NCBI GenBank assembly: GCA_023248215.1
Contig: JAHFEW010000048.1
Location: 1 to 33,266 of the forward strand
DNA from: Nitrospira sp.
Lineage (GTDB): Bacteria > Nitrospirota > Nitrospiria > Nitrospirales > Nitrospiraceae
Length of the DNA stretch: 33,266 nt
Reading direction: 5' to 3'
The notes beneath the pieces were generated by a model. It was not told the DNA's origin. It did no database searches and worked only from the letters and a program-made list of their open reading frames with translations. Position numbers and translations under genes: made by a program. The first letter of the stretch is position 1. The number at the start of each line of letters is the position of its first letter. This document shows positions 12,328 through 23,904 of this stretch, piece after piece.

Positions 12328-12604
12328 GGCGTTATCTCTTCTCTCCGACATGCTGGGGCAACGGCCAGTACTCTTTACACTTCATCAAATGTTCGCGAGC
12401 TGATTGCCTGGGAATAATTCTCTACTATCCGCATCTCTATCGGATTAGGACACCGCTTACTTGAGCAACGATACCTCCTCATCAAAAAGGCTCTAAATCC
12501 CTCCCTGTAATAATCCGCCTCCTTTCCCGTCTAGGGAGATGACAGAGCGGCTTGATCGAGCATGGGGCTCGTCGAAGACCGTTCCTCAACCTAGGAGGCG
12601 CACC

Positions 12605-12823
12605 ATGGAAGATTTGATCCTGAAAATCGACGGAATGAGCTGCGGGCACTGCGTCGGCCAAGTCACGAAGGCATTGACCCAACTGGATGGCGTGCAGGTG
12701 AAAACCGTGAAGATCGGCGAAGCCCTCGTTGCCTATGACCAGCGGGAGATCACACCGGCGGACATTGCCCGGGCGCTAAACGAGGTGGGGTATGCGGCCC
12801 AGCCGGCCGGGAGGGCGGCATGA
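12605..12823 (+). CDS. copZ: Copper chaperone CopZ
   Basis: 72-residue heavy-metal-associated (HMA) domain protein with the metal site GMSCGHC near residue 11-17. It binds Cu(I) in the cytosol and passes it to the CopA ATPase. The ribosome site AGGAGG precedes ATG 12605; an upstream in-frame ATG at 12539 is disregarded. The gene overlaps copA by 4 bp (ATGA), indicating coupled translation. No CueR-type dyad was recognised in the 277-bp gap upstream. Confidence 0.88.
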
Positions 12824-15195
12824 ACAAGGTCGCATTGTCGGAAGGGAAGGTGGAGCTATCTGTCGGTGCGGAGGCGTCCGGCTCGCCCGTTCTGCGGAAG
12901 GTGACGATCCCGGTACAGGGCATGACCTGCGCCGCTTGCCAGAGCCGCGTCCAGCGGGTGCTGCAGGCGGAAACCGGGGTCGTCGATGCGTCCGTCCATC
13001 TCATGTTGAAGCAGGCCGTCATCACCTATGACTCCGCCGTCACCTCGGAGACATCGTTGGTCGAGGCGATCAACCGGACGGGGTATGAAGCCAAGCCTGC
13101 GGCTCAGAGCCAAACCTCGTTCGATGAACAGGCGGCGCAGGATCGGGCGCAGGAAGAGGAGTATCGTGCTGTGCGGCGTAAGGCCCTGTGGAGCGGAGCC
13201 GCCGGCCTGTCGGCCATGGTGCTGTCCATGCCGCTCATGGCGGCGAACGAGCCGGATGGCCATGCAACGGGGTTCTTCATGCCTTGGATGATGCAGGCGG
13301 CATCCTGGTTGTCTTTTGCCACTCCAGCCCAATGGTCCTACATTCTGATGGCGCTGACGGTCGTGGTGATGGGATCGACCGGGCGGCATTTTTATGTGCG
13401 GGCCTGGTCCGCGCTCCGGCATCGCGCAGCCGATATGAATACGCTGATTGCCGTGGGAACCGGCGCGGCCTTTTTCTATTCGGCTTTGGCCACCGTCGTT
13501 CCTGAATTCTTTCTGAACCACGGCGTCAGGCCGGATGTTTATTACGAGGCCGTGATTATGATCATTGCCCTGATCCTGACGGGCCATACGATGGAGGCTC
13601 GTGCCAAACGGCAGACCTCGGTTGCGCTGAGGCGGTTGGTGGCATTGCAACCAAGGACGGCCCGTGTGGTGCGGGAGGCAGTCGAGATCGATGTGCCGGT
13701 CGAAGCGGTGAGGAGCGGAGACATTGTCGTCGTGCGGCCTGGCGAGCGAATCGCGGTCGACGGAGATGTGCTGTCCGGGCAGAGCAGCGTCGATGAATCC
13801 ATGTTGACCGGCGAAGCGATGCCGGTCGCGAAGCAGGTGGGAGATCGGGTCATCGGCGGCACGATCAACAAGTCCGGCGGGTTCCGCTATCAGGCGACCA
13901 CGGTGGGTGCGGACAGTGTGCTGGCCCATATCGTCAAGCTGATGCGGGACGCACAGGGTTCACGGGCTCCGATTCAAAAACTGGCCGACCAAGTCAGCGC
14001 GGTCTTTGTGCCGATCGTGATGGCGCTGGCGCTCGCGACCTTCGTGGTCTGGTATGTCGCGATGGATCAGGCCTCGGTGGTGCAAGCCTTTGCTGCAGCC
14101 GTCGCAGTCTTGATCATTGCCTGCCCCTGCGCGATGGGGCTCGCGGTGCCGACCGCGCTGATGGTGGCGACCGGCAGGGGAGCCGAACAGGGCATCCTGA
14201 TCAAAGGTGGAGAAGCGCTGCAGCGGGCCGGTGGGATTACCACGGTCGCGCTCGACAAGACCGGCACCATCACGGAGGGGAAACCGGCGGTCACCGACGT
14301 AATCCTGACTCAAGGCAGCGAGTGGTCCGATCGTGAATTCCTCAGGCTCGTGGCCTCGTTGGAGGCCTCTTCGGAACATCCGGTGGCGGAGGCGATCGTG
14401 CGTGCGGCCGGAGAGCAGATGCTTCCTTCGGCGGAGGTGGAATCCTTCCAGTCCTTTGCGGGGCGAGGGGCTGCGGGCGTGGTGGAAGGCGCGGCGATCC
14501 TTGTCGGCAATGAAGGCCTGATGGATGACTATGCGGTGCCGTCGGAGGTGTTCCGCGCGCAAGCAGAGCAGTTGGCCGGAGCAGGGAAGACGCCTGTGTA
14601 TGTGGCCATCAACGGTGCGCCGGCTGGGCTTATCGCCGTGGCGGACCCGGTCAAGGCGACGTCATGCGAGGCGATCAGACAGCTCAAACAACTTGGTCTG
14701 ACGGTTGTCATGCTGAGCGGCGATCACGAGCGGACGGCTCAGGCGGTGGCTCGCGAGGTTGGCGTCGATCGAGTCGTGGCCGGGCGGTTGCCGGACGGCA
14801 AGGTGGCGGAGATCCGGCGTCTGCGCGAGGCCGGTCAGGTCGTCGCCATGGTCGGAGACGGCATCAACGACGCGCCGGCGTTGGCCCAGGCCGATGTGGG
14901 CATGGCCATCGGGACCGGAACGGACATCGCCATTGAGGCGAGTGATGTCACGCTGATGCGTGGCGACCTGCATGGCGTTGCGTCGGCGATCAGGCTCGCC
15001 AGGAAGACGATGCGCGTGATGAAGCAGAATCTGTTCTGGGCGTTCATGTATAACGTGATCGGCATTCCCGTCGCGGCCGGCGCGTTGTACCCGTTCACTG
15101 GTCTGATGCTGAGTCCCGTCCTGGCGAGCGCGGCCATGGCCTTCAGCTCCGTCAGTGTCGTGATGAACAGCCTGCGCCTCCGCCATATGCGGTGA
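12820..15195 (+). CDS. copA: Cu(I)-exporting P1B-type ATPase CopA
   Basis: 791-residue inner-membrane ATPase. One N-terminal HMA domain has the metal site GMTCAAC (about residues 38-44). The transmembrane metal site is CPC (from residue 435). The phosphorylation site is DKTGT (D479), the SEHP motif marks the nucleotide domain, and the hinge is GDGINDAP (679-686). The last helices carry YNVIGIP and an M-S-S-type segment (MAFSSVSVV), which are typical of Cu(I) pumps of class 1B-1. With CopZ and the Cus-type tripartite system downstream it moves copper from cytosol to periplasm and on to the outside. Confidence 0.95.
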
Positions 15196-15378
15196 TGTGA
15201 GGGGGTGCGGAGAGACGAAAGAAGATGGCATGACGCGCTTCGCCACAGATATCACATGGGAGAATGACCCGAAATGCCTCAATAGGATGCAAGTATGAGG
15301 TTCGTGGATTTGCGTGGAGATTGGCCTAAATTCTCGGAATCGCATGTGGTCCCAAAAACATCCTGTTTCTGTTCTTTC

Positions 15379-15394
15379 TGGCATTGCCCATGCT
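15379..15394 (+). promoter_or_regulatory. Possible sigma-54 promoter before the cus-type genes
   Basis: TGGCATTGCCCATGCT has the invariant GG, 10-bp gap, GC arrangement but departs from the consensus at the -12 element. It lies 100 bp before the start of the next gene. Nothing else recognisable was seen in the 298-bp gap 15196-15493. Confidence 0.25.
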
Positions 15395-15493
15395 CTAGAG
15401 ATAGGCGGATGAGCTGGCGAGGCTTGACGCGCCTGCTACGGTAATAGAGACTGTGTGTGCAGATTTGAGCAAAGCAGGCCTCTGAGGAGTCTT

Positions 15494-15859
15494 GTGAGTC
15501 CAATGATTCCACGAATGAGTATGCAATACCTTGCGGTGGGGGTTTTGTTTGCCTTCTGTCAGGTGATCAGAACGATGTGCGTCTTGCCTGACATCTCCCT
15601 CGCGGAAGAGGCGGCGTCACTCGTGGAAGACGTGATGATCTGCCCGATGGAGGGAACCACTATGTGTCCGCCGTCGGCAACCTCGTCACCCGAACGTCAG
15701 GGAAAGAGTAGTGCGGTCGCGGATGTTGATCATGCGCCGATTCTGTTGGATCTTTCCGCAGATCTCACAACTCACTCAGTCCCGACTCTGTGTTCCTGGA
15801 GCAGAGCGTTTTCTATTGTCCCTCTCTCCATAGATTCTTCCTCGGTCCTTCGAATCTGA
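15494..15859 (+). CDS. Small exported protein of unknown function in the metal-efflux operon
   Basis: 121-residue protein, not recognised. The start is GTG 15494 with the ribosome site TGAGGAG; an ATG lies three codons on. A hydrophobic segment (MQYLAVGVLFAFCQVI) followed by SLAEEA looks like a signal peptide. The rest contains a CPMEGTTMCPP segment with paired cysteines and methionines and an ASP/HIS stretch (DVDHAPILLDLS). The Cys/Met motif and the position just before cusCBA suggest periplasmic metal binding, but this is inference. It is 93 bp upstream of the TolC-family gene. Confidence 0.5.
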   Translation: MSPMIPRMSMQYLAVGVLFAFCQVIRTMCVLPDISLAEEAASLVEDVMICPMEGTTMCPPSATSSPERQGKSSAVADVDHAPILLDLSADLTTHSVPTLCSWSRAFSIVPLSIDSSSVLRI

Positions 15860-15952
15860 TCCCACACCTCCAGTTCTTTCGCTCGCTGTTCAGCTGCTTA
15901 ACCTGAGCGGCGATGATTTGTCTGTTCTTCACTGCACTCTGGAGGTGCTGCC

Positions 15953-17296
15953 GTGACACCACTTATTGCCCGCAATCGATCTTGGTCCGTTCCCCTATTC
16001 TTTTTTTTCATCGTGGGGCTCTCACCCTGGTCCGTTCGTGGAGAGGAAGATCGTGGGGTGGTCACCCCTGAGGGGACTGCTCATCCCTCGCATGGTGAGC
16101 TTCGTATCAACCTTTCGGACTTAATTGGAGAACTTGAAGCCGTCAATCCTGAGATCAAAGCGGCCCGTCAACGCTGGGAAGCGGCTAAGGCCGTCGTGCC
16201 GCAGGTCCAAACTCTACCTGACCCAACATTGCAGGTCGGCTATCAACGCATGCCGATGGTCCCTCCTGTTGTGGAAGGGGCGATGTATGGGTTTGGACAG
16301 GAGATTCCATTTCCCGGCAAGCTCAGTCTGAAAGGCGAGGTGGCTCAGCGTGAGGCTGAGCGACTGGAGCAGGAGTTTCATGCCACCCGCCTCAGGCTGA
16401 TTGCGACCTTGAAGGAAGCCTATTTCAATCTGCACTTTGTGCATAAGAGCATCGAGATCGTCGAGAAAAACAAAGCGCTCTTAATGCACTTTGAAAAGAC
16501 AGCGAAGGCACGCTACAGCGTCGGACAGGCCGCACAGCAGGATGTGTTTCGGGCTCAAGTGGAGATTTCGCGAGTCCTCGACCGGCTGGCAGTGCTCGAT
16601 CAACAGAAGGAAAGCCTGCATGCGGCGATCAATCGCATCCTCAATCGTCCGCCCGCTGGACCGCTGGGGACACCGGAAGAAGTGCACACCACCATCCTGA
16701 CGATTCTCTTGCAGGAACTCAGTCGGCGCGCCGATGCATTCTCGCCCGCGCTGCTGGCGACGGCGAAGGGCATCGATCGCTCCGAACGGTCCGTTTCGCT
16801 CGCCAAACGGCAGTACTATCCGGATTTCGATATCACCGCGCTCGGCCTTCGGAACGACAAGATCAACGATAACGGGTACCAAGTGATCGTGGGGATCAAG
16901 ATTCCACTCTTCTATGAGACCAAACAGAAGCAAGGGGTGCGGGAGGCCCTGGCCGGTCTTGAGGGAGCGCGAGAAAACTTTGCCGCGACGCGGCAGGACC
17001 TGTTGTTCCAAGTCAAGGACGGCTTTGTGCAGGCGCAGCGGGCTGAGCGGCTGATCACTATTCTGCGTGATGCGATCATCCCGCAAGCCACCTTGGCGCT
17101 TCAGGCGGCGCAAGCCGGCTACGGGGTGGGAAAGGTGGACTTTCTGACGCTGCTCAATAGTCTATTGACTCTTCAGGACAGCCAGCTCGAACTGCATGGG
17201 GAGATGGTGAACCACGAGAAAGCGCTCGCGCGACTTGAGGCCGTGACCGGCGGACCGTTGAATGGCGGGCTATCGGAAAGGAAGCCGGGATCATGA
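15953..17296 (+). CDS. cusC: TolC-family outer-membrane efflux protein (CusC/CzcC type)
   Basis: 447-residue outer-membrane channel of a heavy-metal RND system. The signal peptide is about residues 1-30 (SVPLFFFFIVGLSPW). Two outer-membrane-efflux repeats follow: AVNPEIKAARQRWEAAKAVVPQ marks the first and LAKRQYYPDFDITALG the second. The CzcC/CusC-like FGQEIPFPGKL motif is clear. The start is GTG 15953 behind the ribosome site GGAGGTG. It overlaps the adaptor gene by ATGA. It would span the outer membrane and receive metal from CusB/CusA. Confidence 0.9.
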   Translation: MTPLIARNRSWSVPLFFFFIVGLSPWSVRGEEDRGVVTPEGTAHPSHGELRINLSDLIGELEAVNPEIKAARQRWEAAKAVVPQVQTLPDPTLQVGYQRMPMVPPVVEGAMYGFGQEIPFPGKLSLKGEVAQREAERLEQEFHATRLRLIATLKEAYFNLHFVHKSIEIVEKNKALLMHFEKTAKARYSVGQAAQQDVFRAQVEISRVLDRLAVLDQQKESLHAAINRILNRPPAGPLGTPEEVHTTILTILLQELSRRADAFSPALLATAKGIDRSERSVSLAKRQYYPDFDITALGLRNDKINDNGYQVIVGIKIPLFYETKQKQGVREALAGLEGARENFAATRQDLLFQVKDGFVQAQRAERLITILRDAIIPQATLALQAAQAGYGVGKVDFLTLLNSLLTLQDSQLELHGEMVNHEKALARLEAVTGGPLNGGLSERKPGS

Positions 17297-18531
17297 CTCG
17301 CCGCAGCCTCATTGGATCGGGCGTGCTGCTCGTTCTCGTCATAGCGGGACTCGCCTGGCTGTGGTGGCGTCCGGCGTTGCTCCCGCCCGCGGATTCGAGA
17401 CAAGACGCAATGCCGGACATGCCGGGGATGGTATCCCAGTCCAGGCCGAGGACTGAGGAGCCGAGGCCGAACCCTAGACCTGAATCTTCGGCGCTCACCC
17501 CTGAGTTGCCGGGCATCGTTACGATCCCAGTCGATCGTCTACAGATGATCGGAGTGAAGTACCAACCAGTGGCCAGACGTCCGCTGGAGAAACTGATTCG
17601 GACCGTCGGGCGGGTCGCAGTCGACGAACGAAAGCTGGCGAGAGTCACCATCAAGTTTCACGGCTGGATCGAAGAACTGTTTGTGAGCGCGCTCGGCGAT
17701 CATGTGAAGAGAGGACAACAGCTCTTTACGATCTACAGCCCCGACCTGGTCGCGAGTCAGGAGGAATACCTCCTCGCGTTGCAGGGGCAGAAACAATTAG
17801 GGGCCAGCGAGTTTCCCGAGGTCGCGCGCGGCTCCCGGGATCTGCTCGAGGCGACCAAGCGTCGCTTCCAATTGTGGGATATCACGGAAGACCATCTTCG
17901 AGAGCTCGAACAAACCGGCAAAGTCATGAAAGCGCTCCCGATCCATTCGCCCATCACCGGGACGGTCATTAGAAAAGAAGCGCTGGCCGGTGCCCACGTG
18001 GACCCCGGCGAAGAACTCTATACCATTGCGGATCTCTCCCGCCTCTGGGTCTTGGCGGACATCTACGAATACGAGCTGTCCTTTGTGAAGATCGGGCAGC
18101 AGGCCGCCGTGACGCTCTCCTACGATCCGGGGACGGTCCTGACCGGACATGTGGGATTCATCTATCCGACACTCGATCCCAAAACACGCACGGCCAAAGT
18201 TCGCTTCGAACTCGACAACCGCGATGAGAAGCTCAAGCCGGACATGTATGCCAACGTGGAGCTGCGGGTGAACTTGGGCACTCGCCTGGCAATCCCGCAA
18301 GAAGCCGTCATCGAATCGGGCCAGAAACAAATGGTGTTTCTTCACCTGGGCGGCGGGAAGCTTGAACCACGCCTGATCAAGACGGGAGTGAAAACGGGAG
18401 AGTGGTCTGAAGTGCTCACAGGACTGAAGGAAGGGGAGCACATTGTGACTTCGGCGAATTTCCTGATCGACAGTGAAAGTCGGCTCAAGTCCGTGGTCGA
18501 GGGCATGGGCGGCATGCCGGGCATGAAGTGA
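17293..18531 (+). CDS. cusB: RND efflux periplasmic adaptor subunit (CusB type)
   Basis: 412-residue membrane-fusion protein. N-terminal anchor/signal around residues 9-26 (SGVLLVLVIAGLAWLWW), then a Met-rich segment (MPDMPGMV) and a proline-rich linker. The core has the CusB-like GRVAVDERKLARVTIKFHGW and ELFVSALGDHVKRGQQLFTIYSPDL (barrel-sandwich domain), an alpha hairpin, and beta-barrel segments (GFIYPTLDPKTRTAKVRFEL). It bridges CusA and CusC. The end is again Met/Gly-rich (GMGGMPGMK). ATGA overlap with cusC. Confidence 0.92.
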   Translation: MTRRSLIGSGVLLVLVIAGLAWLWWRPALLPPADSRQDAMPDMPGMVSQSRPRTEEPRPNPRPESSALTPELPGIVTIPVDRLQMIGVKYQPVARRPLEKLIRTVGRVAVDERKLARVTIKFHGWIEELFVSALGDHVKRGQQLFTIYSPDLVASQEEYLLALQGQKQLGASEFPEVARGSRDLLEATKRRFQLWDITEDHLRELEQTGKVMKALPIHSPITGTVIRKEALAGAHVDPGEELYTIADLSRLWVLADIYEYELSFVKIGQQAAVTLSYDPGTVLTGHVGFIYPTLDPKTRTAKVRFELDNRDEKLKPDMYANVELRVNLGTRLAIPQEAVIESGQKQMVFLHLGGGKLEPRLIKTGVKTGEWSEVLTGLKEGEHIVTSANFLIDSESRLKSVVEGMGGMPGMK

Positions 18532-18535
18532 AGAA

Positions 18536-18642
18536 CGTCAAACGTCATTGGTCATTCGTCAATCGGAAGAGCGAAGATGAGAGAAAAGCGGGAGCCGTGT
18601 CCTTTTTCCAGTCGAATGACGATTGACGGTTGACGAATGACG
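18536..18642. repeat. Heptamer-built inverted repeat element (site 6)
   Basis: Left arm CGTCAAA CGTCATT GGTCATT CGTCAAT (18536-18563). The right arm (18613-18642) read on the opposite strand is CGTCATT CGTCAAC CGTCAAT CGTCATT. Each unit is 7 bp and nearly every one begins CGTCA. A 49-bp purine-rich centre separates the arms. It fills the cusB-cusA gap. Confidence 0.65.
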
Positions 18643-18667
18643 CGCCGAGCGGCAGCGAGGCAGGGCC

Positions 18668-21600
18668 ATGGTTGCACAGATCATCGAATTCAGCGCGAGA
18701 AACCGCTTCATTGTCTTCCTGCTCGTCTTCTCGTGCTCCGCAGTTGGACTCTGGGCGATGTGGCAGACACCGATCGATGCCCTGCCGGATATTTCTGACA
18801 CGCAGGTCATTGTGTATACCACTTGGCCTGGGCGGTCTCCAGACCTCGTCGAGGATCAGATCACCTATCCGATCGTCACGGCGCTCCTGTCCGCGCCGAA
18901 CGTCACGGTCGTCCGTGGCTTCTCGGACTTTGGCTATTCCTATGTCTACATTCTCTTCAAAGACGGTACGGATATTTATTGGGCCAGGTCGCGCATCCTC
19001 GAACGGTTGAACCAACTCTCTGGGCGCATGCCGGAAGGGGTCACCCCGCAGCTGGGGCCTGACGCAACGGGCGTGGGCTGGGTCTTTCAATATGCCCTGG
19101 TCGATGAGACCGGCCAACAAGATTTGGCCGCTCTGCGCAGCTTCCAGGATTGGTACCTGCGGTATTGGCTGCGGGCCGTGGAAGGTGTGGCCGAGGTGGC
19201 CAGTATCGGCGGCTTCGTCCGGCAGTACCAAGTGAATCTCGACCCGACCAAAGTCTTGGCCTATCGCCTGTCTCTCCCTTCCATTGTGGAAACGATTCGG
19301 CAAAGCAACAACGACGTGGGTGGCCGCGTGGTGGAGTTTTCGGGGATTGAATATGTCGTGCGTGGGCGCGGCTACATCAAGAAGGTGGAAGACATTGAAA
19401 AGATTGCCGTGGGGGTCAACGAAAACGGGACGCCGATTCTCCTGCGTGATGTGGCGACGGTGCGGCTGGGGCCGGACATGCGACGTGGGTTGGTCGAATT
19501 GAACGGCCAAGGTGAGGTGGCGGGCGGCATCGTGGTCATGCGGTTTGGGGAAAACGCGCTCGCGGTGATCGAACGAGTCAAAGCGAAGCTCAAGGAGATC
19601 GAACCCTCCATGCCGAAAGGCGTCAAGGTCGTTACGACCTACGACCGCAGCGACTTGATCCACGAATCAATCGCGACGGCGAAAGAAAGTCTGATTGAGG
19701 AACTGGTCGTGACCGGCGTGTTGATCCTCATCTTCTTGCTGCATGTCCGTTCCGCGATCGTGCCTATCCTCACCCTGCCGCTTGCGGTGCTGATCGCGTT
19801 CATTCCGATGTACCTGATGGAGATCGGCATCAATATTATGTCGCTGGGCGGCATCATCGTGGCGATCGGCGACATGGTGGATGCGGCGATCGTGATGGTG
19901 GACAACGCCCACAAGCGCTTAGAGGACTGGGAACGGGATGGACGACAAGGCGATCGGCTGCAAGTGCTGATCGATTCTGCCAAGGAAGTCGGTCCGCCGA
20001 TTTTTGCCTCCGTGCTCGTCATTGCCATTTCGTTCATCCCGATCTTTGTCCTGGAAGCCCAGGAAGGTCGCATGTTCAAGCCGCTGGCCTGGACGAATAA
20101 CCTGGCCATCGCCGCATGCGCCGTGTTGGCGATCACGCTGGTGCCCGCCTGTTTGCCCACTTTCATTCGAGGCAAGATCTTCCCGGAACAGAAACATCCC
20201 ATAAGCCGCTCACTCCAACGGCTCTATACGCCTCTGCTGCGTACGGCCCTCCACTATCGAAAAGCGGTCGTCATCGGGGCCATCGTGCTCATGGCCAGTA
20301 TCGTGCCGCTCTATCAACAGATGGGCTCCGAATTCATGCCGCCGCTGTACGAAGGCACGATCCTCTACATGCCGACCACGCTGCCCGGGCTGTCGGTCAC
20401 GGAAGGCAGCCGACTCCTCCAGATGATGGACAGGAAGCTTCGCTCGTTCCCCGAGGTGGAGCAAGTCTTCGGCAAAGCTGGACGGGCCGAAACCTCCACC
20501 GATCCGGCGCCATTCAGCATGATGGAAGTGGTGGTATCGCTGAAACCCACAGAGCAGTGGCGACCCGGTCTGAGCTATGAGGGCTTGATTGATGAGATGG
20601 ACCGCACCCTACAGTTCCCCGGTGTGACGAACGCGTGGACCATGCCGATCAAGGCGCGGATCGATATGCTGACGACTGGAATTCGGACGCCGGTCGGGAT
20701 CAAGATCTTTGGCCCGGATCTCAAGCAGATCGAACAGATCGGCGAGCATCTGGAGAGGGTGCTCAAAGAGGTCCCAGGCACGCGGAGCGTATACGCAGAG
20801 CGGGTATCTGGCGGCTACTTTCTGGACTTCGACATCAATCGTGACGAGATCGCGCGTTACGGGCTCACGCTGATGGATGTCGGCAAGATCATCGAGACGG
20901 CCATCGGGGGTGAAAATATCGCCACCACGATCGAGGGCCGTGAGCGTTATCCAATCAACGTGCGGTATCTCCGTGAGTTGCGGGATGATCCTGAAAAGCT
21001 GAAGCGCGTGCTCGTGGATACCCCGACCGGCGCGCAAGTCCCGCTCGCGCAACTCGCGACGCTCCGATTCGTCAACGGGCCGCCTATGATCCGGGACGAA
21101 AACGGCCTGTTGGCCGGCTACGTCTTTCTCGACATGACGGGACGGGATGTCGGCGGTTACGTGGAGGATCTTAAACTGGTTGTGGCCGCACAAGTCGAAT
21201 TGCCGCCGGGCTATACGATTGTCTGGTCCGGTCAATATGAGTTCATGGAGCGGGCGAAAGAGCGGCTGAAGCTCGTCGTGCCGTTGACGCTCATCATCAT
21301 CTTCGTGATCTTCTATTTCACGTTCCAATCAGTTGCGAAAACCTTCATGGTGATGGTGGGTGTGCCGCTCTCCCTGGTGGGCGCGGTCTGGTATCTGTCG
21401 ATCCTCGGCTACAACATGAGCATTGCAGTGTGGGTGGGACTCATCACGGTCGTCGGCACGGCCGCAGAGACCAGTGCGGTGATGTTGGCCTATCTCGATG
21501 AAGCCTGTCAGCGGCGCAAAGCGGGTGGCGGGCTGAGAACGCTTGAAGATCTGATCGAGACGGTGCACCTCGGCGCGGTGGAGCGCATCCGCCCCATGGC

Positions 21601-21835
21601 GATGATCGGCCTTGTTGATGTCATCGGATTGTTCCCGGTGATGTGGGCGACCGGAACCGGCGCCGATGTCATGAAACGCATCGCGGCGCCCCAAGTCGGC
21701 GGCGTGTTCTCCGCCATGATCCTCACGCTGTTCGTCATTCCGCCCGTCTATGTGATGTGGCGCTGGTGGAAGGAACACCAAGAGAATTCGGTGAGGGAGA
21801 TAGGTCATGCGAGTCTACCAGAAGACAACATATAA
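18668..21835 (+). CDS. cusA: Heavy-metal RND efflux pump CusA/CzcA family
   Basis: 1055-residue inner-membrane transporter, the length expected for the HME-RND family. Recognisable blocks include the porter-domain TTWPGRSPDLVEDQITYPI, the TM4 segment AIGDMVDAAIVMVDNAHKRLE with the acidic residues used in proton relay, and the repeat-like second half with TM10-12 (GLITVVGTAAETSAVMLAYL). Cu(I)/Ag(I) specificity is favoured by the neighbouring copZ and copA, but Czc-type Co/Zn/Cd specificity cannot be excluded from sequence alone. Its 3' end overlaps the DMT permease gene by 29 bp. Confidence 0.93.
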   Translation: MVAQIIEFSARNRFIVFLLVFSCSAVGLWAMWQTPIDALPDISDTQVIVYTTWPGRSPDLVEDQITYPIVTALLSAPNVTVVRGFSDFGYSYVYILFKDGTDIYWARSRILERLNQLSGRMPEGVTPQLGPDATGVGWVFQYALVDETGQQDLAALRSFQDWYLRYWLRAVEGVAEVASIGGFVRQYQVNLDPTKVLAYRLSLPSIVETIRQSNNDVGGRVVEFSGIEYVVRGRGYIKKVEDIEKIAVGVNENGTPILLRDVATVRLGPDMRRGLVELNGQGEVAGGIVVMRFGENALAVIERVKAKLKEIEPSMPKGVKVVTTYDRSDLIHESIATAKESLIEELVVTGVLILIFLLHVRSAIVPILTLPLAVLIAFIPMYLMEIGINIMSLGGIIVAIGDMVDAAIVMVDNAHKRLEDWERDGRQGDRLQVLIDSAKEVGPPIFASVLVIAISFIPIFVLEAQEGRMFKPLAWTNNLAIAACAVLAITLVPACLPTFIRGKIFPEQKHPISRSLQRLYTPLLRTALHYRKAVVIGAIVLMASIVPLYQQMGSEFMPPLYEGTILYMPTTLPGLSVTEGSRLLQMMDRKLRSFPEVEQVFGKAGRAETSTDPAPFSMMEVVVSLKPTEQWRPGLSYEGLIDEMDRTLQFPGVTNAWTMPIKARIDMLTTGIRTPVGIKIFGPDLKQIEQIGEHLERVLKEVPGTRSVYAERVSGGYFLDFDINRDEIARYGLTLMDVGKIIETAIGGENIATTIEGRERYPINVRYLRELRDDPEKLKRVLVDTPTGAQVPLAQLATLRFVNGPPMIRDENGLLAGYVFLDMTGRDVGGYVEDLKLVVAAQVELPPGYTIVWSGQYEFMERAKERLKLVVPLTLIIIFVIFYFTFQSVAKTFMVMVGVPLSLVGAVWYLSILGYNMSIAVWVGLITVVGTAAETSAVMLAYLDEACQRRKAGGGLRTLEDLIETVHLGAVERIRPMAMIGLVDVIGLFPVMWATGTGADVMKRIAAPQVGGVFSAMILTLFVIPPVYVMWRWWKEHQENSVREIGHASLPEDNI

Positions 21836-22880
21836 AGGCGCTGGGTATGGTCTCGCCGCTGCGGCCCTGTTCGGCGTCGGTCTTCCGCTCGCCAAGCTCT
21901 TGCTGCCTGAAGCAAGTCCCCTGCTCATCGCCGGCCTGCTCTATCTTGGAGCCGGCTTGGGACTCCTTGTCTTTGAGCGGTTGTTCTACCGTGGATCTGA
22001 CGCCTCACGGCGAGAGGCACCAGTGGGGACAACCGATCGATGGTTATTGGCAGGCATTGTCATCACAGGCGGCATCCTAGGACCTGTCTTCATGCTGTGG
22101 GGGTTACAGCGCATGGCGGGAGTACTCGGCTCGCTGCTGTTGAATTTGGAAGCACCCTTCACGATTGTGTTGGCCGTGGCTCTCTTTCGAGAACACCTCG
22201 GGCGCGTGGAAGCAGTTGGCACCCTGCTGATCGTCGTCGCGGCGGGCTTCCTTCAGTACAGACCGGGCGATCTCCGTCCGGATGCATGGGGATTTTTCGC
22301 CATCGCCTGTGCCTGCCTCTCCTGGGCGCTGGATAACAATTTGAGTCAGCGATTGTCCCTTCGTGATCCGATCGTCGTGACGCGGATCAAGACATTAAGC
22401 GCGGGGGTCTGTACGCTGAGTCTCGCTGCCGTGGTCGATCACAACTTGCCCCGGCCCTCAATTGTTATGGCCGCGCTTGTGCTGGGCCTTTTCAGCTATG
22501 GCGTGAGCCTGATGCTGGATATGCAGGCGCTCCGTCTGCATGGCGCCGCTCGCGAGGCCGGATTCTTTGCGACCGCCCCCTTTATCGGCGCCCTCGCCGC
22601 TGTTCCCATTCTCGGTGAGCGCTGGGGAACCAGCGAGATGGTGGCGACCGTGGTCATGGGGGTGGGCGTCGTACTCCTTGTCCGAGCCCATCACAGCCAT
22701 TTCCATCTGCATGAGGAAGTGGAGCATGACCACGCACATGTGCACGCCGACCACCACGATCATGAGCATGAAAAGACGCAGGGGGTCGAGGAGCCGCATG
22801 CCCACCTGCACCGCCACTTGCCGTTGATGCATGACCATCCCCACCGCTCTGAGCTCCATCACCGCCATGAGCATAGATAG
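21807..22880 (+). CDS. DMT-superfamily (EamA) permease with histidine-rich C-terminal tail
   Basis: 357-residue inner-membrane protein with about ten hydrophobic helices in two EamA-type halves (starting GAGYGLAAAALFGVGLPLAK and GFFAIACACLSWALDNNLSQ). The last 65 residues are outside the family core and are dominated by His, Asp and Glu (HSHFHLHEEVEHDHAHVHAD and on to HHRHEHR), a likely metal-binding domain. The gene overlaps cusA by 29 bp with a ribosome site GAGGGAGATAGG inside it, so it belongs to the efflux operon. A role in metal transport or buffering is inferred; the EamA family itself is broad. Confidence 0.82.
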   Translation: MRVYQKTTYKGAGYGLAAAALFGVGLPLAKLLLPEASPLLIAGLLYLGAGLGLLVFERLFYRGSDASRREAPVGTTDRWLLAGIVITGGILGPVFMLWGLQRMAGVLGSLLLNLEAPFTIVLAVALFREHLGRVEAVGTLLIVVAAGFLQYRPGDLRPDAWGFFAIACACLSWALDNNLSQRLSLRDPIVVTRIKTLSAGVCTLSLAAVVDHNLPRPSIVMAALVLGLFSYGVSLMLDMQALRLHGAAREAGFFATAPFIGALAAVPILGERWGTSEMVATVVMGVGVVLLVRAHHSHFHLHEEVEHDHAHVHADHHDHEHEKTQGVEEPHAHLHRHLPLMHDHPHRSELHHRHEHR

Positions 22881-22960
22881 AACGTGGTCAACGGGGTAGG
22901 AATGTATGAAGAGTCGAATCCGAAACTCAAGAGCTCCGGTATCTGCTTGTCGCCTGCGGA

Positions 22961-23003
22961 GGATACAGAAAGGCAGCTCCCTTGGGGGAACTACCCTTCT
23001 GTC
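22961..23003. terminator. Imperfect stem-loop after the efflux operon
   Basis: CAGAAAGG and the CCC/GGG core pair with CCCTTCTG, giving an imperfect long stem that ends in GTCCTTTC. It lies 80 bp past the DMT permease stop. The tail is only weakly T-rich, so it is a candidate terminator, possibly for both directions. Confidence 0.35.
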
Positions 23004-23013
23004 CTTTCACGGC

Positions 23014-23129
23014 TTACTGATGAGGTCGCTAAATAGTGCGTGATTTAAGCCAGCAAGCGATGCGTTTATTGCGATTAAGGCTGAACCGCTTTTTTTGCGT
23101 TACGCACTATTTGATGGTCGGCTCAGTAA
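23014..23129. mobile_element. 116-bp element with 28-bp terminal inverted repeats (MITE-like)
   Basis: The left end is TTACTGA, 10 unrelated bases, AAATAGTGCGT (23014-23041). The right end is its inverse: ACGCACTATTT, 10 unrelated bases, TCAGTAA (23102-23129). The spacing is identical and 18 of 18 defined bases match. The 60-bp centre contains a T7 run and no coding sequence. No target duplication was found, so a conserved RNA or DNA stem rather than a transposon remnant is also possible. Confidence 0.5.
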
Positions 23130-23212
23130 CTGACCAGGCTTTGCAGCCAAGACCAGACTTTGGATGCAGCCCCATAGGGGCAAAAGCCAAACTGTTCGAT
23201 CCATGGACACAT
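23123..23212 (-). CDS. 29-residue peptide behind a mer-type promoter
   Basis: Small reading frame starting ATG at 23212 and ending TGA at 23123. It is preceded by AAGGAGGTGATC, an almost complete match to the 16S rRNA 3' end, 3 bases further from the ATG. The peptide begins MCPWIEQFGFCPYG, has two cysteines (positions 2 and 11) and three tryptophans, and ends QSLVSY. A mer-like promoter sits directly upstream, with a predicted leader of about 20 nt. No homologue is recalled. The stop codon lies in the outer end of the 116-bp inverted-repeat element, so the frame could be the truncated start of a longer gene. Confidence 0.5.
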   Translation of the reverse strand: MCPWIEQFGFCPYGAASKVWSWLQSLVSY

Positions 23213-23237
23213 GGCGATCACCTCCTTTCAGGGATGC

Positions 23238-23269
23238 ATCGTACAGGTTGTACTACGGTACCGAGTCAA
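23238..23269 (-). promoter_or_regulatory. mer-type promoter/operator facing the 29-residue peptide
   Basis: On the minus strand: TTGACT (-35, 23269-23264), a 20-bp spacer, TACGAT (-10, 23243-23238). In the spacer, GTAC-CGTA-GTAC sits at positions 3-14. The mercury operator of Tn501/Tn21 places GTAC-N4-GTAC at the same offset from its -35. Over-long spacers of 19-20 bp are characteristic of promoters activated by MerR-family regulators. Confidence 0.7.
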
Positions 23270-23297
23270 GGGGGGAGATCGACTCATGTTGGGATAA

Positions 23298-23329
23298 TTG
23301 ACTCTCTACCATAGTACAAGGTGTAGGGT
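23298..23329 (+). promoter_or_regulatory. mer-type promoter/operator of the MerR gene
   Basis: TTGACT (23298-23303), 20-bp spacer, TAGGGT (23324-23329). The spacer holds CTAC-CATA-GTAC at the same offset as in the divergent promoter. The two promoters share most bases (TTGACTC, TACC, TAGTACAA, TGTA). The predicted transcript starts about 12 nt before the regulator's ATG. Autoregulation is likely. Confidence 0.65.
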
Positions 23330-23347: not shown

Positions 23348-23788
23348 ATGGCTCACGAACTGACGATCGGTCAGCTCGCCAGACGTATCGGCGTGAACGT
23401 TCAAACTATTCGCTATTACGAGCGTCTGAAGCTGCTCAGACCATCAGCAAGGAGGCCTTCGGGGTACAGACTGTACAGTCACGAAGAGGAACGACGTTTA
23501 CGGTTCATCAAGAACGCCCAAACGCTCGGCTTCACGCTCCGCGAGATCGCTGAGTTGCTCGCTCTCCGGGTTGCCTCAACGGCTCGCTGTGGTGAGGTGC
23601 GGGAAAAGGCTCGGGCGAAACTAGTACAGGTGGAATCCAAAGTTGACGACTTGCAGGCCTTGGCCCGCGCGCTGAACAGTTTGATCCGAGCTTGCAGAGT
23701 TGGCCAGCCCACCGGTTACTGTCCGATTCTGATGAGCTTCGAAGAAGAAACAAGAGACGGAACGAAGAAGGGAATAGGAAAAGGATGA
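23348..23788 (+). CDS. MerR-family regulator with mercury-type cysteine triad
   Basis: 146-residue transcription factor. The N-terminal winged helix-turn-helix reads LTIGQLARRIGVNVQTIRYYERLKLL. A long dimerisation helix follows. Metal-site cysteines are C81, C116 and C125; the 35 and 9 residue spacings equal those of the Hg(II) sensor MerR (C82, C117, C126) and of the Pb sensor PbrR. Both promoters next to it carry mer-type operators. No merA, merT or merP was seen in the window. Hg(II) is the best guess, Pb(II) or another thiophilic metal is possible. It overlaps a 39-codon frame by ATGA. Confidence 0.88.
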   Translation: MAHELTIGQLARRIGVNVQTIRYYERLKLLRPSARRPSGYRLYSHEEERRLRFIKNAQTLGFTLREIAELLALRVASTARCGEVREKARAKLVQVESKVDDLQALARALNSLIRACRVGQPTGYCPILMSFEEETRDGTKKGIGKG

Positions 23789-23904
23789 CACCAAAACGCG
23801 CGAGTCTGTTCACGGAACTGCGCCGCTTGAGTCTACAGGTAACCGGCGGCTTGTTGCGCATGCGGCAAGAGGCCTATCGCGATGCGGCTGTCGAAGTCAT
23901 ATAA
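23785..23904 (+). CDS. Possible 39-residue protein overlapping the MerR gene
   Basis: ATG 23785 overlaps the MerR stop (ATGA) and has AGGAAAAGGA upstream, the arrangement of a translationally coupled gene. The product, MTPKRASLFTELRRLSLQV then TGGLLRMRQEAYRDAAVEVI, is basic and helical. It is not recognised. It could be a real small protein or the intact start of a decayed gene. Confidence 0.4.
   Translation: MTPKRASLFTELRRLSLQVTGGLLRMRQEAYRDAAVEVI

Follow-up and report, generated by a model that had tools for sequence, protein, structure and literature searches.

A conserved CP-x7-CP microprotein gene beside merR in Nitrospira, tied to mercury and soft-metal resistance

The merR–microprotein locus and its promoters

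The window (the whole stretch of DNA analysed here, 33,266 nucleotides) belongs to a Nitrospira genome of 4.69 Mb in 199 contigs. The genes at 12539-22880, comprising a CopZ-like gene, a copper-type P-ATPase, CusCBA-type RND genes and an EamA-type transporter whose tail is rich in histidine, form a metal-resistance island around a divergent two-gene unit, in which a microprotein open reading frame is placed between the EamA-type gene (21807-22880) and merR (Table 1). The ribosome site of the microprotein gene is the sole occurrence of its sequence in the window with 1 mismatch allowed (0.03 expected from shuffles). A GTG start giving 32 residues was rejected, as its 3 added codons are unconserved and the ribosome-site spacing favours the ATG. 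The peptide had no match above curated cut-offs in Pfam or NCBIfam (a weak zf-CCCH hit reached 15.6 bits versus 30), and no Rfam match was found in the window. A hairpin lies directly 3′ of the stop codon in most of 14 aligned relatives; in the window, an 82-bp insertion, which may be a small mobile element, has moved it away from the stop codon, and part of this element recurs at 88% identity in another Nitrospira genome (G001). This element may explain why the window copy has 29 instead of 28 codons.

Table 1 Coordinates of the features of the divergent unit in the window and of a second microprotein at related loci
Feature	Position	Strand	Description
Conserved hairpin ending the microprotein unit	22960..23005	-	-33.5 kcal/mol, z -6.4; terminator-like or mRNA-protecting; no clear U-run
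Small element, 82 bp	23031..23112	.	Perfect 11-bp inverted ends (AAATAGTGCGT / ACGCACTATTT); between stop codon and hairpin; missing here in aligned relatives
Microprotein gene	23123..23212	-	29 codons + stop, MCPWIEQFGFCPYGAASKVWSWLQSLVSY; CP-x7-CP, then predicted amphipathic helix; basis: ORF, relatives, alignment, dN/dS
Shine-Dalgarno site	23216..23228	-	AAAGGAGGTGATC; almost fully complementary to the 3′ tail typical of bacterial 16S rRNA
mer-type promoter/operator of the microprotein gene	23238..23269	-	TTGACT (23269-23264), 20-bp spacer CGGTACCGTAGTACAACCTG with GTAC-N4-GTAC, TACGAT (23243-23238); conserved in relatives
mer-type promoter/operator of merR	23298..23329	+	TTGACT (23298-23303), 20-bp spacer CTCTACCATAGTACAAGGTG with CTAC-N4-GTAC, TAGGGT (23324-23329); conserved in relatives
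MerR-family regulator, 146 aa	23348..23788	+	Cys triad C81, C116, C125 with Hg-MerR spacing; basis: Pfam, NCBIfam, PDB, alignment, tree
CMD/AhpD-like gene remnant, frameshifted and truncated	23785..23904	+	39-codon frame versus ~120-130 codons in relatives, where it is intact after merR; PF02627 in a relative
Second microprotein (related loci)	L043:6348-6461	+	
Second microprotein (related loci)	L045 6313	-	
Second microprotein (related loci)	N. moscoviensis G442:C1:1523706-1523819		
Second microprotein (related loci)	G025:C17:248076-248186		

Both promoters carry a mer-type operator (a TAC-N4-GTA dyad) in an overlong spacer of 20 bp. When the pattern TTGAC-N4-TAC-N4-GTAC-N6-TA was searched with up to 2 mismatches, the window matched at these two promoters only (0.04 matches expected from shuffles); with 1 mismatch, the 4.69-Mb genome held one further, weaker site, on contig C183 ahead of another merR. 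An earlier note, made from the sequence alone, had described two divergent promoters that share the mer architecture, each with TTGACT, a 20-bp spacer, the dyad at its Tn501 offset and a -10 box; this architecture stands, with the qualification that the offset matches Tn501 whereas the spacer, at 20 bp, is 1 bp longer than in proteobacterial MerR sites. Spacers of 20 bp were found at every mer-type site listed among the loci, a tally that counts conserved sites and is not an independent measurement of spacer length, the search pattern having fixed the dyad and the first two -10 bases. Proteobacterial MerR sites have 19-bp spacers, and Firmicute MerR(Hg) sites carry GTAC-N4-GTACAGGGT within 20 bp (PMC1526738). 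Several Nitrospira sites read GTAC-N4-GTACAGGGT and are thus similar to those of Firmicutes. The further genomic site noted above (G000:C183:25450-25477, L088), a third mer-type promoter, precedes a cluster of a MerR gene, a CMD gene and a third gene, without the peptide.

In the regulator, PF13411, PF09278 and PF00376 (HTH and effector helix) scored above their cut-offs, and the best solved relatives were the Bacillus Hg-MerR (4ua1, the nearest) and Tn501 MerR (5crl), with whose Hg ligands C81, C116 and C125 (spacing 35 and 9), together with P126, align. The equivalent cysteines of Tn501 MerR bind Hg(II), and the proline after the last of them matters for induction (PMC5027573). The best NCBIfam model was TIGR02051 at 123.5 bits, under its equivalog cut-off of 150.85, with the ZntR model NF007069 second at 122.8, so that the regulator might instead respond to Zn, Cd, Pb or Cu. 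The alignment confirms the MerR/PbrR-exact triad spacing claimed in the earlier note, whose other readings here, a 29-codon frame with an almost complete anti-rRNA site and a peptide with two cysteines (C2 and C11), were likewise found.

Conservation and coding evidence for the microprotein

When 148 relatives were searched, many Nitrospiraceae matched the peptide strongly over its 28-29 residues, and an alignment-based search placed peptide relatives in 24 of the 175 Nitrospiraceae species genomes. In a scan that covered 84,980 species, 14 loci were confirmed, with titles all Nitrospira or Nitrospirae bar one Nitrosospira; the queries were sequence patterns of stand-alone copies only, so divergent forms may exist elsewhere. 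Among 395 genomes of the phylum, families other than the Nitrospiraceae yielded weak matches only (E above 1e-3, short or with stops), while searches for the peptide gave nothing convincing on plasmids and no match on viral contigs.

The relatives are nearly fixed in length, at ~28 codons (26-29), and keep the CP-x7-CP motif, with M1, C2, W4, G9, F10, C11, P12 and W22 invariant among 16 aligned stand-alone rows. We call them the Nitrospira CP-x7-CP microprotein family, a name given in the present analysis and defined by MC[P/H/Q]-x6-G[FY]CP, 26-29 codons, a strong ribosome site at a conserved start and purifying selection, all of which are found in the window peptide. The start codon occupies the same position in nearly every copy, 6-7 nt past a GGAGGTG site (TTG or GTG replaces ATG in two copies), and the ribosome site is kept at fixed spacing in nearly all relatives; in one copy (L051) the usual stop is missing and the reading frame continues. 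Across an alignment of 14 divergent loci, the merR start, both promoters, the ribosome site and the frame are all conserved, and the mer-type promoter is conserved before most stand-alone copies.

Among 23 distinct stand-alone copies, dN/dS was 0.16 in the microprotein frame, compared with ~1 or more, or stops in most copies, in the other frames, and third codon positions carried most of the differences (1309/901/2869 by codon position). Frame and ribosome site, whose absence from relatives would by the earlier note have counted against the idea, are kept in about two dozen Nitrospiraceae genomes, with purifying selection at the protein level, and the 29-codon frame is almost certainly protein-coding. 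That so short a frame, unannotated and lacking a family match, should be a leader peptide or a chance ORF, functionless as a protein, is very improbable: the low dN/dS comes with synonymous turnover and a conserved stop, a chance ORF was rejected on dN/dS and conserved context, and in the window no gene follows on the minus strand before the hairpin, so that the transcript stands alone with nothing downstream to attenuate. The peptide motif is also fused to MerT in one genome (see below). In an AlphaFold2 model, a helix starts immediately past C11 and extends almost to the C-terminus (pLDDT ~70-83), and the hydrophobic moment is high in stand-alone copies.

Mercury operons, efflux loci and the MerR clade

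Relatives of the peptide also occur as cistrons of mercury operons, the gene families of which were confirmed. In N. defluvii NOB1 (L042), a P-type ATPase gene and a peptide gene come before merR, which is followed by a second peptide (MCPFAEWLGFCPF...), merB::merT and merP, and in G387 (L107), G277 (L108) and N. moscoviensis (L106) merR is followed by a peptide (MCPYEEWLGFCPL... and close variants), merB::merT, merP and a CMD-family gene; merA comes next in G387 and N. moscoviensis, with none within the stretch of the G277 contig that was read. One genome (G014, L089) has a stop-free frame from MCPYEEWLGFCPFAVGRRVRALIKRLLGE into MerT, such that the peptide motif is the MerT N-terminus, with the ribosome site before the peptide start. 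Mer-operon and stand-alone copies share ~12 N-terminal residues and diverge in their C-terminal halves, and it is these residues, plus the matching context, that suggest kinship. An in-frame TGA stands at codon 7 of the mer-operon copies of N. moscoviensis (L106) and G357 (L105), a codon that reads TGG (Trp) in their siblings; in G357 a frame-broken MerT follows the copy, which makes decay likely. MerB (organomercurial lyase) and MerT are a single fused protein in several Nitrospira mer operons (L042:7633-8820, L107:2374-3465).

True merA was present in 9 of the 24 peptide-bearing genomes versus 8 of the 151 others (p = 5e-5), and merT was enriched too (p = 1e-3), although this co-occurrence with merA could stem from shared resistance islands. 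The window holds no mer gene, and thus no merA or mer transporter under the same promoter; the earlier note was right that neither is seen there, though merA and merF occur on another contig of the host genome (C11, 5.2 kb), which can therefore probably reduce Hg(II). The mercury reading of that note is strengthened by the peptide relatives, which occur as cistrons in merR-merBT-merP-merA operons and in a single genome form the N-terminal segment of MerT. The microprotein family is real, previously undescribed and tied to Hg/soft-metal resistance in Nitrospiraceae; its occurrence under the same promoters, in full mer operons and in a MerT fusion makes it probably an overlooked metal-handling part of that resistance.

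In a tree, the MerRs beside stand-alone peptides and those of peptide-containing mer operons form one clade (support 88/96), distinct from the classical merTPA-type MerRs also present in some of these genomes; cysteine positions are altered in the MerRs of several relatives. The tree bears on a possible but doubtful alternative, in which the microprotein–MerR unit senses and handles a metal other than mercury, namely Cu(I), Pb(II), Cd(II) or Zn(II), and the mercury link of its relatives is merely historical. Such a role would suit the CusCBA-type RND genes, copper P-type ATPase and CopZ-like gene next to the unit, the second-place ZntR profile and the classical-type MerRs of merA operons that coexist in several genomes, but the cysteine triad has Hg/Pb spacing, the dyad is of mer type and MerRs of the same clade stand at the head of true mer operons.

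Many stand-alone copies are located among copper and RND efflux genes, not mer genes, and in G045, G069 and N. moscoviensis they immediately precede a periplasmic Cys protein and CusCBA-type genes. These positions, the Trp-rich amphipathic helix and the one MerT fusion would also fit a small modulator that acts on a membrane transporter by protein contact, as AcrZ does on AcrB (PMC7267776), with cysteines that are structural and carry no metal. We consider this modulator unlikely, given that the invariant C2, C11 and P12 and the control by MerR indicate metal chemistry, and that the partners vary by locus (MerT, P-type ATPase, RND or none adjoining).

A candidate metal-handling role

The reading that we favour, somewhat above even confidence, is that of a MerR-induced cytosolic thiol microprotein for Hg(II) or other soft metals, which would buffer or relay metal beside Mer transporters and efflux pumps. 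The locus would then act as a two-gene metal-response unit, with MerR occupying two operators, each in a promoter whose 20-bp spacer is overlong for normal use; on binding Hg(II) or a similarly thiophilic metal via C81/C116/C125, MerR would untwist the DNA. Activation of overlong promoters by metal-loaded MerR is the established MerR mechanism. Metal-loaded MerR would turn on both its own gene and the strongly translated 28-29-residue microprotein, the transcript of which would stop near the conserved hairpin. In the cytosol, C2 and C11 (CP-x7-CP) would serve as metal ligands, and the Trp-rich amphipathic helix may anchor the peptide at the membrane or on a transporter, so that metal could be buffered or relayed between Mer importers, MerA/MerB and efflux pumps. 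Judged from sequence, the microprotein is likely a MerR target, and it is moderately likely to be a metal carrier. The N-terminus of MerT is cytosolic, and the MerT fusion and the position beside merB::merT suggest that Hg(II) may be handed on or buffered at the cytosolic side.

The metal-binding loop of Hg-MerR (4ua1, 5crl) resembles the peptide in its two cysteines nine residues apart, each followed by proline in 4ua1, and in a second cysteine that opens a helix; unlike that loop, the peptide is free, lacks the third cysteine of the MerR dimer and has no detectable homology to it. Homology was rejected because profile comparison found none (probability 0.5%), and a motif-level analogy was kept. 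This analogy raises a further alternative, which we regard as improbable: that the peptide acts as a co-regulator, a free-standing version of the MerR metal-loop motif that takes metal away from MerR and ends the response once it is abundant, with a MerD-like effect. The loop of Bacillus MerR (CPENKDIYECP, 4ua1) and the peptide (CPWIEQFGFCP) are both exactly CP-x7-CP, the proline after the second cysteine matters for Hg induction in Tn501 MerR (PMC5027573), and the peptide is usually near merR, with regulation usually common to both. Besides the negative profile comparison, however, mer-operon copies are positioned like structural genes, one of them within MerT, which fits metal transfer better. 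The favoured reading of a metal-handling thiol peptide can be carried further, if only tentatively: a metal-capturing peptide module with Hg-MerR loop spacing, present in Nitrospira in three forms (free and MerR-induced, mer-operon cistron and MerT arm), might carry Hg(II) from transporter to enzyme as a shuttle, either diffusible or tethered, or might reset MerR, and would thus be a mer component of an undescribed kind.

Among known systems, the mer accessory proteins (MerP, MerT, MerF, MerE, MerC and the NmerA domain) are like the peptide in standing under mer-type MerR promoters, in being small and Cys-paired, and in lying beside, or fused to, the Hg transport path, and close relatives of the peptide are mer-operon cistrons. 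Unlike them, the peptide has 28-29 residues, is predicted to be cytosolic, is without an HMA fold or transmembrane helix and has no Pfam or NCBIfam model. MerD is likewise a small extra product of mer regulons, but it is a ~120-residue MerR-like DNA-binding protein. The stress-induced AcrZ, MntS, MgtS and CydX, which tune transport, share with the peptide a length under ~50 residues, production on demand and a usual lack of annotation. Most of these are transmembrane proteins, and to our knowledge none is a CP-x7-CP thiol peptide under MerR control.

We found no description of the microprotein in the open-access literature. Mercury resistance is among the best-studied bacterial metal systems, and the gene callers behind its gene list usually miss 28-codon genes; a conserved microprotein controlled by MerR, and also found as an extension of MerT, would be a new mer part. 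It would raise the questions of the path of Hg(II) from transporter to MerA and of how MerR resets, and a short natural thiol peptide might serve in Hg sensing or capture. The hosts are nitrite-oxidising and probably also comammox Nitrospira, relevant to wastewater and drinking-water treatment.

Other small or metal-related genes adjoin some family members. In L039, an operon (L039:2674-6455) that encodes CsoR-like, MerF-like and CcdA-like proteins, along with a P-type ATPase containing two HMA domains, lies directly upstream of the peptide and may be a different system for transporting Hg or Cu. The MerF-like neighbour of the peptide in L039 and L042 (CPLYDETGLCG) was considered as a further fusion and not counted, its second cysteine coinciding with the MerF TM1 cysteines. 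At three loci, the peptide comes after a different MerR and a second small peptide rich in Cys, and is itself followed by a CusCBA-type operon. This second microprotein, of 38 aa with a C-terminal CPSCPFCP (MQYLLSLVPSTVIATLIRAWPAMGNIVSNVCPSCPFCP), lies just upstream of the first, is preceded by a strong ribosome site of its own in L043 and L045, and was found in 4-5 of the 175 family genomes.
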